Assembly: GCA_004283055.1 (NCBI GenBank) | Contig: SHLP01000010.1 | Span: 1 to 55,039 of the forward strand | Reading direction: 5' to 3' | DNA: 55,039 nucleotides | Source: Deltaproteobacteria bacterium | Lineage (GTDB): Bacteria; Myxococcota_A; Polyangia; Polyangiales; Houyiibacteriaceae | Shown: positions 24,857-47,243 of the stretch, one piece after another | How positions within the stretch are numbered: the stretch's first letter is position 1 | Layout of the letters: every line of letters starts with the position of its first letter | Notes under the pieces: generated by a model | Told to the model about the DNA's origin: nothing | The model's database searches: none | Seen by the model: the letters and a program-made list of their open reading frames with translations, nothing else | Program-made: the position numbers and the translations under genes

Positions 24857-25339
24857 ATGGCAAGCCCCCAGATGGTGATGTACGAGGAGGAGTTTGCCCA
24901 GGTCCAGGCCGTGACCAATCGGCTCGTCCAGGATTCAAACGCTCGGGTCGTCTTCGTCATCGACAAGAACGGTCAACTGATCAGCGCATCAGGTGATACC
25001 GGTGATCTCGATACGACTTCCCTCGCCTCGCTTACTGCGGGTACTATCGCCGCGACGGGAGGCATCGCGGAGCTGCTGCGTGAGCAGGAGTTTGCGACGC
25101 AATACCACGAGGGGGTGCGGCAGAACGTTCATATCCAGGTGGTCAGCGGTCGCGCGATTCTTGTCGTCATCTTCGACAATCGAACGAGCCTAGGGCTGGT
25201 GCGGCTCCGCGTGAAGCGCGCCACCGAGCACCTGACCCGGATTTTCGAGATAGTGGTAGCCAAGGCGCAGGACCCTTTTCAGAGCTCACCGTTTGCTGAG
25301 ATAACCGATGATGACATCGACAATTTGTTCAACGACTGA
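24857..25339 (+). CDS. mglB: MglB, Roadblock/LC7 GTPase-activating protein
   Basis: MglB is the GAP for MglA and, in Myxococcus, marks the lagging pole during gliding motility. The 160-residue protein contains VMYEEEFAQVQAV, FVIDKNGQLISASG, DTTSLASLTAGTIAA and VVIFDNRTSLGLVRLRVKRA, all of which I recognise from Myxococcus MglB. The acidic tail AEITDDDIDNLF also matches. The first ATG at 24857 gives an N-terminus of similar length to the known protein, but a start at an internal Met (residue 6 or 8) cannot be excluded. It is followed after 19 bp by mglA. The gene pair strongly suggests a myxobacterium. Confidence 0.97.
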   Translation: MASPQMVMYEEEFAQVQAVTNRLVQDSNARVVFVIDKNGQLISASGDTGDLDTTSLASLTAGTIAATGGIAELLREQEFATQYHEGVRQNVHIQVVSGRAILVVIFDNRTSLGLVRLRVKRATEHLTRIFEIVVAKAQDPFQSSPFAEITDDDIDNLFND

Positions 25340-25358
25340 CTAGGAGAGGCTTAGGGGG

Positions 25359-25952
25359 ATGTCTTTCATCAACTACTTGTCGCGCGAGATCAACTGCAAG
25401 ATCGTTTACTACGGGCCCGGCCTCTGCGGGAAAACGACCAACCTGCAGTACATCTACAATCGCACCAACCCGGATGCGAAAGGCAAGATGATTTCGCTCG
25501 CGACCGAAACGGAGCGAACCCTCTTTTTCGATTTCCTGCCGCTCGAAATCGGCGAAATCCGTGGCTTCAAGACGCGCTTTCATCTCTACACGGTCCCCGG
25601 TCAGGTGTTCTACGATGCGAGCCGGAAACTGATTTTGAAAGGCGTTGACGGCGTCGTCTTCGTGGCGGACTCTCAGATGCTCCGCTCCGAGGCGAACATC
25701 GAGTCGATGGACAATCTCCGCACCAACCTCGCAGAACAGGGCTACAACCTCGACGCCCTTCCCTACGTAATTCAGTACAACAAGCGCGACATGCCGAACA
25801 TCTCGCCGGTCGAAGAGCTCCGCCGATTGCTCAACACCGGCAACGTGCCCGACTTCGACGCCATCGCCACGACCGGCGAAGGCGTCTTCGAAACGCTCAA
25901 GTCCGTCGCCAAGCTGGTCCTCACCGAGCTCAAGCGCGGCGCAGCCCGTTAG
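25359..25952 (+). CDS. mglA: MglA, Ras-like polarity GTPase
   Basis: MglA is a small cytoplasmic GTPase that localises to the leading cell pole and drives both motility systems in Myxococcus xanthus. The P-loop GPGLCGKTT spans residues 19-27. The conserved Asp of the usual DxxG motif is replaced by Thr78 (TVPGQ), which is the MglA hallmark. The catalytic residues Arg53 and Gln82 described for M. xanthus MglA are both present. The base-recognition motif is QYNKRD. The length (197 residues) is normal and the ATG has a GGAG/GGGG-rich upstream sequence. It converges on leuS with a 7-bp gap. Presence of the pair does not prove that the cell glides. Confidence 0.98.
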
Positions 25953-45121: not shown

Positions 45122-45970
45122 CTAATAGACGCCAGGAGGCGGCGAGCTCAGCGCCCTGATCCCGTCGTGATTCTTGAGTGCCTCGAGAATGATCGTCGCA
45201 GTCTCCTCGATGGCGCAGTTGGTCACGTCAACCACCATCCACTCGGGGTTGCTCCGCAAAATGCCGTGCGCGTATTCGAGCTCGGCTTTGACGTGGTCGC
45301 GCAGGCCGTAGTTCGCGTCGGTCGGCATGCCGAGCTGCTGCAGGCGCTGTTTGCGGATGTACATCAACTGATCGACGTCGATAGTGAGGCCCACGACCCG
45401 AAAGCCTGGGAGCTGGTAGAGTTCTTCGGGAGGCTCGACGCCTAGCACGAGCGGCACGTTCGCGACTCTGAGTCCACGCCCAGCCAAATACGTCGACAGC
45501 GGCGTCTTGCTCGTCCGGCTGACGCCCACCAAGACGAGGTCGGCCTTGTGGAGGTTGCGCGGCTCTTTGCCGTCGTCGCTCTTGACCGCAAACTCGATTG
45601 CCTCGACTCGTCGAAAATACTCCTGTGACAGGGGCATTTCGGCCGTCGGAATGTTGACCGGGTCGGCTTCGAGGTAGTGACCGATCTGGGAGATTAGCGA
45701 ACCGATCACGTCGACGTGACGGACATTGAGCCGAGTCGCCTGCTCGTTGAAATGGTCGCGTAGCTCTGGGCGAACCAAGGTGAAAACGACCATCGCCTGG
45801 TCCGCGGCGGCGCTCTCTAGAACGGCCGTCAGCGCACGTCGATCTCGGAGGCGGCGTTCAATCCTCAGTCGAACGCCATGATCGGGGAATTGCAGAAGTG
45901 TGGCTCGGGTCACCCGCTCGGCGGTTTCGCCGGTCGAGTCGCTGACCACGTAGATGACCTTCGCATCCAT
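45122..45970 (-). CDS. Pyruvate phosphate dikinase / PEP synthase regulatory protein (DUF299)
   Basis: A bifunctional kinase and pyrophosphorylase that inactivates PEP synthase or pyruvate phosphate dikinase by ADP-dependent threonine phosphorylation and reactivates it by phosphorolysis. VYVVSDSTGETAERVTRA at the start, the P-loop-like VGVSRTSKTPLSTYLA and the later LTIDVDQLMYIRKQR are family hallmarks. The length of 282 residues is normal. The ATG at 45970 follows the stop of a 44-residue basic protein gene by 11 bp, so the two are probably co-transcribed. Which enzyme is the target (PpsA or PPDK) is not visible here. Confidence 0.95.
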   Translation of the reverse strand: MDAKVIYVVSDSTGETAERVTRATLLQFPDHGVRLRIERRLRDRRALTAVLESAAADQAMVVFTLVRPELRDHFNEQATRLNVRHVDVIGSLISQIGHYLEADPVNIPTAEMPLSQEYFRRVEAIEFAVKSDDGKEPRNLHKADLVLVGVSRTSKTPLSTYLAGRGLRVANVPLVLGVEPPEELYQLPGFRVVGLTIDVDQLMYIRKQRLQQLGMPTDANYGLRDHVKAELEYAHGILRSNPEWMVVDVTNCAIEETATIILEALKNHDGIRALSSPPPGVY

Positions 45971-45981
45971 GGAGGCCTCGC

Positions 45982-46116
45982 TCAGAGGCGACGGCCTAGC
46001 TTCCGCCCGTGCATTCGATTGACGCGACGACGGTTCTTTGCCTTACGCTTGGCGTTTCGGCGCGCCGCTTTGTTGCGCTTGCGAGACCGGTCGCTGTTCA
46101 CGATGTTCAAGTACAT
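45982..46116 (-). CDS. 44-residue very basic protein, probable nucleic-acid or ribosome binder
   Basis: A very short gene. AGGAG lies 7 bases before the ATG at 46116, and the stop TGA is at 45982-45984. The product starts MYLNIVNSDRSRKRN, continues as KAARRNAKRKAKNRRRVNR and ends in GRKLGRRL. I count 19 Arg or Lys residues in 44, no Cys and almost no acidic residues (one Asp). There is no membrane segment. Such sequences occur in small ribosomal proteins, nucleoid proteins and RNA-binding peptides, but I do not recognise a family. The gene precedes the PPDK/PEP synthase regulator by 11 bp on the same strand. An alternative reading is that the basic run is a by-product of GC-rich DNA; the ribosome site and clean boundaries argue against this. 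Confidence 0.72.
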   Translation of the reverse strand: MYLNIVNSDRSRKRNKAARRNAKRKAKNRRRVNRMHGRKLGRRL

Positions 46117-46169
46117 GGCTCACTCCTGAGGAGCCGCTTGTAAGGGATGCCCGGGAGCAACGCAAGCAG

Positions 46170-47243
46170 TCAGCGACTTCGTCGCGGGACGAGCAGCCAA
46201 TAGTCGAGGTCGAGGACGACATCCTGGTGATAAACGTCCCGGCCGTCTTTGGAGACCTTCAGAGGAAACCCAGCGTTGGTCGGCTGGATGTCTCGAAGCG
46301 CCACCAATCTCACCCGCAGGGCCCCACAGTCGCTGCGGCCTGGAATGTCGGCTTTATCGAGGATTTCGCTGTAGGCATAGACGGTGTCGCCCGCGAAAGT
46401 CGGGTTTGCATGGGCGCCCCCGTTCCAGGCGAGGATGCCCAGGACTTTCTCCATCCCGTTGAAGGACAGCGAGCGCGCCACGCTGATGACATGGCCGCCG
46501 TACATCAAACGACGACCGAAGCGTGTGTCTTTCGTTTGGATCGCGTCGAAGTGGACCTTGGCCGTGTTCTGATACAAGCGGGTCGCGGTCGCGTGCTCCG
46601 CCTCTTCGATCGTCATCCCATCGACGTGGTCGATTTTCTCGCCCCGCTCATAGTCTTCGAAGTACGCACTGCCCCCCGCCGGCCAGTCCTCGTACGCGCT
46701 GAGATCGAGAACAGCGGGCACCACCAGATCCCCGGGCGCCACTTCCTTGGGCATCGACGGTCGGTCGGCCGCACCGGTCGGCGTCGACGGGTCTCGCTTG
46801 TGGACCATCACCCATCGGTAGTATTCGAGCACCGCCTCGCCGCGCTGATTGGTACCTTCCGTTTTGACCCAGACCACGCCGGTTTTGCCATTGCTGTTTT
46901 CCTTCTTGCCGATGACCTCGGAGACGGAGCGCAAGGTGTCGCCGGGATAGACCGGCGCTAGAAACCTCACCCCGGCGTAACCGAGGTTCGCGACCGCGTT
47001 GAGGGAGACGTCATTGACGGTTTTCCCAAACACGATGTGGAAGGTCAGCATGTCGTTGATCGTCTCGCGAGGATGACCCAGGGACCTCGCAAACTCCGCG
47101 GAGCAATGCAGCGGATAGCGGGATCCCGTCAGGCCGATGTACAGCGCCGCCTCGCCCTCGGTGATCGTGCGCGGCACGGCGTGAACGAGCTCCGCACCCA
47201 CTTCGAAATCCTCGAAAAAATTGCCTGGATTGGTCTTGGCCAT
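46170..47243 (-). CDS. MaoC-family dehydratase, mesaconyl-CoA hydratase-like
   Basis: A 357-residue double hotdog-fold protein. The N-terminal half has NFFEDFEVGAELVHAVPRTITEGE, TGSRYPLHCSAEFA, FHIVFGKTVNDVSLNAVANLGYAG and VYPGDTLRSVSEVIGKKENSNGKTGVVWV. These resemble beta-methylmalyl-CoA dehydratase/mesaconyl-CoA hydratase (Mch) of the ethylmalonyl-CoA and 3-hydroxypropionate pathways. The second half carries a further MaoC-type domain with MTIEEAEHATATRLYQNTAKVHFD and MYGGHVISVARSLSFNG. GAGGA 6-7 bases upstream supports the ATG at 47243. No other gene of these pathways is nearby, so the substrate is inferred from similarity only. Confidence 0.85.
   Translation of the reverse strand: MAKTNPGNFFEDFEVGAELVHAVPRTITEGEAALYIGLTGSRYPLHCSAEFARSLGHPRETINDMLTFHIVFGKTVNDVSLNAVANLGYAGVRFLAPVYPGDTLRSVSEVIGKKENSNGKTGVVWVKTEGTNQRGEAVLEYYRWVMVHKRDPSTPTGAADRPSMPKEVAPGDLVVPAVLDLSAYEDWPAGGSAYFEDYERGEKIDHVDGMTIEEAEHATATRLYQNTAKVHFDAIQTKDTRFGRRLMYGGHVISVARSLSFNGMEKVLGILAWNGGAHANPTFAGDTVYAYSEILDKADIPGRSDCGALRVRLVALRDIQPTNAGFPLKVSKDGRDVYHQDVVLDLDYWLLVPRRSR

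Follow-up and report, generated by a model that had tools for sequence, protein, structure and literature searches.

The window analysed here, a 55,039-nt stretch of DNA, contains a short reverse-strand open reading frame that is rich in arginine and lysine and lies directly in front of a gene for a PPDK/PEP-synthase regulator (Table 1). This arrangement raises two questions: whether so short a frame encodes a protein, and, if it does, whether that protein serves the neighbouring carbon-flux switch, as its position had suggested, or has a function of its own.

Evidence that the frame is coding

Translation of the reverse-strand ORF 46116-45982 gives MYLNIVNSDRSRKRNKAARRNAKRKAKNRRRVNRMHGRKLGRRL, a protein of 44 residues comprising 13 arginines and 6 lysines (19/44, 43%). 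It is alone among the 331 window ORFs of 36-90 aa in reaching an arginine plus lysine content of ≥ 43%, and alone among them in containing that much lysine. The regulator gene starts 11 nt past the stop codon of the peptide. The frame, the composition, the AGGAG with its start and stop, and the spacing described in the original prediction were therefore all confirmed. Forty-four codons is not under the length limit of every gene caller.

Arginine-rich false frames arise in high-GC genomes, and a spurious ORF had to be considered for this reason. However, pN/pS calculated across 16 congeners was 0.12 in the peptide frame, the lowest of the six frames, and 0.31-4.7 in the other five. Between the window and one congener (locus L003), the peptide gene differs by 13 synonymous and no nonsynonymous changes. 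Both the start and the length are constant in the genus members that were found, the start is kept in nearly all matches in the order, and the congeners have AGGAG or GGAG as Shine-Dalgarno sequence at this start. Because pN/pS is this low and the start is kept order-wide, a spurious ORF is refuted; the order-wide matches and a conserved promoter-like element (both described below) likewise reduce its probability to a negligible level. On these sequence comparisons, the 44-aa ORF is a real coding gene under purifying selection. A 307-codon open frame on the forward strand (46038-46961) is antisense to both the peptide gene and the MaoC hydratase gene, and is probably a non-coding mirror of a high-GC gene.

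Table 1. Features at the peptide locus, in window coordinates.
Feature	Position	Strand	Basis
PPDK/PEP-synthase regulator (kinase/pyrophosphorylase), downstream neighbour	45122..45970	-	PF03618, E 4e-88; PRK05339, E 2e-85
CDS of the 44-aa basic protein	45982..46116, stop included	-	pN/pS 0.12; profile matches in 129/133 genomes of the order
Predicted single basic helix, codons 14-36	46009..46077	-	AlphaFold2 model m47ffba227e3d; conserved columns
Shine-Dalgarno AGGAG	46123..46127	-	6 nt from the ATG; sequence
-10-like TACAAG	46137..46142	-	TTGC[AG]NN-N17-TANANN in 14/15 congeners
-35-like TTGCGT, 17 nt spacer	46160..46165	-	same congener alignment
MaoC-type hydratase (mesaconyl-CoA hydratase-like), upstream neighbour	46170..47243	-	PF19315, PF01575

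A conserved promoter-like element

A consensus promoter scan upstream of the peptide gene, based on the E. coli consensus, found nothing. Comparison of the upstream regions of the congeners identified a TTGCG-N17-TANA element, which the scan missed because it departs from the E. coli consensus. In the upstream alignment, 14 out of 15 congeners have TTGC[AG]NN-N17-TANANN, the end of which is 17-20 nt from the ATG, compared with 0.01 expected in shuffles. In the window, the element lies between the MaoC stop and the peptide ATG. Among the wider first subfamily, to which the window's peptide belongs, TTG-N16..18-TA was detected in 17 of 44 members against 1.4 expected in shuffles; it was detected upstream of none of 17 members of the second subfamily (see below). 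Judged by its conservation, the peptide gene has its own promoter-like element, which would act as a promoter.

Distribution across the Myxococcota

A search with the single sequence found the peptide in 44 of 58 relatives, and matches within the genus always begin at residue 1. With a profile built from 36 sequences, we detected matches in 129 of the 133 genomes of the order that were ≥ 90% complete, representing 71 of 72 genera. There is essentially one match per genome, and any second match (E 0.006-0.09) is no better than chance. Two more families of the class also have start-anchored forms. No convincing profile match came from families f13-f16, f19 and f57-f61 of the class, or from part of the phylum; where no match was found, the gene has been lost or has diverged past detection.

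With a broader profile, the search extended beyond the class to a second subfamily that is represented in many more families of the Myxococcota and has the consensus MKKxxxxRNRNKSSRHRAKLKAKHRRxRxR...GxRxxxR. It has matches in about 69 genomes at E ≤ 1e-3, of which about half a dozen are partial and of moderate strength. Alignment of the two subfamily profiles with hhalign gave a probability of 97%, an E-value of 1e-11 and a score of 49, compared with ≤ 16.6 in 120 column-shuffled controls, and by this profile comparison the two subfamilies are clearly homologous. Members of the family are 34-50 aa long, rich in arginine and lysine, and contain very few acidic residues. Beyond the Myxococcota, the distribution was sampled in a single scan covering 84,980 species, for which a narrow pattern was derived from the window's own subfamily. 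The scan returned 28 loci which, where the group was named, carry a Myxococcota label or that of a Deltaproteobacteria/Proteobacteria MAG. Taken together, the matches identify the peptide gene as a near-universal single-copy core gene of the order with relatives across the Myxococcota.

Two near-equal matches to the second subfamily occur in a single genome bin (G211:C114:2762-2878 and G211:C455:2724-2840), which also has two PF08213 hits. The double matches represent either a duplication or two strains sharing one bin.

Predicted structure and conserved core

The AlphaFold2 model has a mean pLDDT of 75.9, rising to about 91 over residues 21-30, and its ends are flexible. The family core, R-x-K-S/A-x-R-x-x-A-K-x-K-A-K-N-R-R-R, falls inside the predicted helix, and its spacing is fixed (R14, R19, A22-K23, K25-K27, R29-R31). 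A basic helix of this kind would also be compatible with an RNA chaperone or with DNA binding. The 43% Arg/Lys content and the helical prediction could be read as those of a nucleoid-associated or DNA-binding peptide resembling a short histone-H1-like tail. Although this reading accommodates the composition, the family has a specific core with fixed spacing and not a low-complexity KA/PAK repeat, and we regard it as unlikely.

Gene neighbourhood

The original prediction was to be abandoned if the short frame lacked conservation in related genomes whose flanking genes were conserved. We found the opposite: conservation of the peptide exceeds that of its neighbourhood. Within the window's genus, peptide and regulator stand in a fixed order, with a gap of 9-13 nt in 15 congeners, and the two genes are probably co-transcribed there, which is a statement about position and not about the function of the peptide. 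The upstream MaoC gene is present at 10 of the 15 congener loci and is not conserved even in the genus. The regulator lies near the peptide in 14 other genomes (on the same strand in 13) and in two more from a further neighbourhood set. In other genera of families f1, f2, f3 and f5, it remains close by, in most cases downstream and on the peptide's strand. The gaps there are wider, reaching about 200 nt and, in L053, about 2 kb; at one locus (L056), the regulator is on the strand opposite to the peptide.

Other neighbours vary by clade. They are mglA/mglB, queD or a PilZ-RNase E/G gene in f12, with the PilZ-RNase E/G gene near the peptide in f5 as well as in part of f12; guaB in f7; malQ in f38; and tgt, in places with pyrF or ychF, in f20, f25, f29, f33, f37 and f40. 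Next to second-subfamily members, tgt is often the closest gene in the same direction. We searched for a PF03618 gene in 22 peptide-carrying genomes, a set that left out the genomes with known linkage except that of the window. Nine had none. In the remaining 13, the gene was on another contig in 12, and was linked to the peptide only in the window's genome.

These data bear on the possibility that the product is a partner or leader peptide controlling the translation or activity of the PPDK/PEP-synthase regulator. Although the short gap and conserved order in the genus, and the downstream regulator in many genera of the order, are what such a role would predict, the constraint acts on the amino-acid sequence and not merely on codons or RNA, the gaps widen in other genera, and many of the tested genomes carry the peptide with the regulator absent or on another contig. 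We consider this role highly improbable; among the 22 genomes examined, co-occurrence and conserved linkage with PF03618 were not found, and a functional partnership is disfavoured. The adjacency of the regulator appears to be incidental, and the link to a carbon-flux switch that had been proposed is not supported, given neighbours that change from clade to clade and the nine genomes with no PF03618 gene. That the peptide outlives its surroundings is itself evidence for an independent function.

No ribosomal-protein operon was present at any peptide locus seen, and no tRNA linkage of the peptide gene was found. At four second-subfamily loci (L151, L155, L159 and L160), tgt follows the peptide on the same strand after 10-95 nt, and ychF, which encodes a ribosome-binding ATPase, is near the peptide in L154 and L160. 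In f12 (for example L085), the neighbour queD is, like tgt, a queuosine gene. The tgt, ychF and queD neighbours make a link of the peptide to translation possible, if unproven.

A non-ribosomal RNA-binding accessory, such as an RNA chaperone or a partner of RNase E/G or of tRNA modification, whose basic helix would bind structured RNA, would fit the PilZ-RNase E/G genes (f5, part of f12), the queD genes (part of f12) and tgt beside the second subfamily, as well as the composition and predicted helix. However, none of these genes is a constant neighbour of a peptide that is nearly universal in the order, and we view this alternative as a minority possibility.

Two other sets of genes were noted around the peptide. 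The window encodes a pair that resembles MglB and MglA in sequence (a roadblock protein and a small GTPase) at 24857-25952, about 20 kb from the peptide gene; f12 homologues of this pair are directly beside the peptide at L087, L090, L091, L093, L094, L127 and L128. A conserved secreted or lipoprotein-like gene with an acidic low-complexity start (L050:1439-2899) also lies near the peptide, and has homologues in L049, L053, L054, L056, L057, L059, L101, L103 and L138, spanning many genera of the order.

Comparison with known protein families

Searches of Pfam and NCBIfam with the peptide and its profiles returned no match, and comparison to PDB chain sequences gave no match that survived the broader profile, in agreement with the earlier impression that the product belongs to no recognised family. 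The PDB hits of the first profile, USP16 (E 0.037) and plant uL22 (E 3.4), were gone with the broader profile and are attributed to chance. We found no report in the literature on the peptide or on the structure of a myxobacterial ribosome.

The size and composition resemble those of bS22/mS38 (COX24) and bL34, and the second-subfamily profile gave a weak full-length PDB hit to bL34 (E 0.025), as might be expected if the peptide were a diverged member of either family. However, the peptide has no match to PF08213, the bS22 family. Of the 285 Myxococcota genomes sampled, 60 contain PF08213; no genome of the window's class is among these 60, and a search of the window's own genome gave 0 hits, also at E 10. 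In 46 genomes, a PF08213 gene and the peptide gene are both present at different places. Canonical bL34 exists as a separate gene in 20 out of 20 genomes, the bL34 search (PF00468) did not list the peptide's place even at E 10, and the hhalign score of the peptide profile against bL34 was within the column-shuffle range. We rejected homology to both, and a diverged bS22/mS38 or bL34 is very improbable. Homology to bL37 was also rejected, with no signal from the profiles against the PDB or from hhalign. The distribution of bS22/COX24_C in the Myxococcota is patchy.

Proposed function and significance

The family is new, and the protein is most likely of a known kind, that of small lineage-specific ribosomal proteins such as bS22 and bL37. 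It has the properties of this kind in being single-copy, near-universal in its lineage, small and basic, with scarce acidic residues, a conserved spacing of Arg and Lys, and no dependence on its neighbours. By this analogy, we lean towards an unrecognised single-copy core protein of the Myxococcota that serves as a lineage-specific structural ribosomal protein. We infer RNA binding because of the composition and the predicted helix, and the ribosome as the target because of the universality, single copy, size and basicity of the peptide and the analogy with bS22 and bL37. The original guess of a ribosomal or RNA-binding product holds up to the extent that the peptide is a conserved small basic protein of that character.

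As a lineage-specific ribosomal protein, the peptide would place its Arg/Lys-rich helix of about 23 residues, flanked by an unstructured N-terminus (M[YF][LI]..) and a basic tail, in an rRNA pocket, in the manner of bS22 and bL37. A more specific version, which we put forward tentatively, is that it may be a phylum-specific ribosomal protein absent from solved ribosomes; in several families it would bind rRNA at a site of its own, alongside bS22, and of the two it is the one detected in the Polyangia. The patchy detection within the class and the phylum counts against a ribosomal role, as do the lack of a ribosomal-protein operon around the loci seen and the other binding roles that a basic helix could serve. 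Loss, or divergence past detection, would be unusual for a ribosomal protein, though not unknown, and bS22 is patchy too.

A ribosomal role would mean that ribosomes in a large phylum of antibiotic producers include a component found in no family library or structure searched, and that this new component coexists with bS22 in related families. Even if it is not ribosomal, the gene is single-copy and nearly universal in a whole order and yet lacking in Pfam and NCBIfam, so that the peptide is probably missed in gene catalogues, in essentiality screens and in search files for proteomics. The profile (alignments A3 and A4) makes the gene findable.

Likeness to known systems

Among known systems, the PPDK/PEP-synthase regulator (PF03618) is a neighbour of the peptide in several families of the order and is no partner of it by co-occurrence. 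bL34 is like the peptide in length (about 44) and in its richness in arginine and lysine, and differs in being present as a separate canonical gene. bL37, a mycobacterial large-subunit peptide of 24 aa (PDB 5o60 chain 3), is like the peptide in form and unlike it in sequence; it is tiny, basic, lineage-specific and helical, and sits in a pocket of the rRNA close to the peptidyl transferase centre (PMC10618245). bS22, the homologue of mitochondrial mS38/AURKAIP1 (PF08213, COX24_C), resembles the peptide in being small, K/R-rich and essentially one helix, although the peptide lies outside PF08213 and bS22 was not found in the sampled Polyangia genomes. Proteins of the bS22 family are about 30-45 aa long, 40-60% K/R, lineage-restricted and often missed by annotation, and the previously unannotated bS22 of Borrelia is 61% K/R, helical and located in a 16S rRNA pocket (PMC10618245). 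That the ribosomes of different species contain lineage-specific proteins is established (PMC10764239), and the Myxococcota peptide would be a further protein of this kind.
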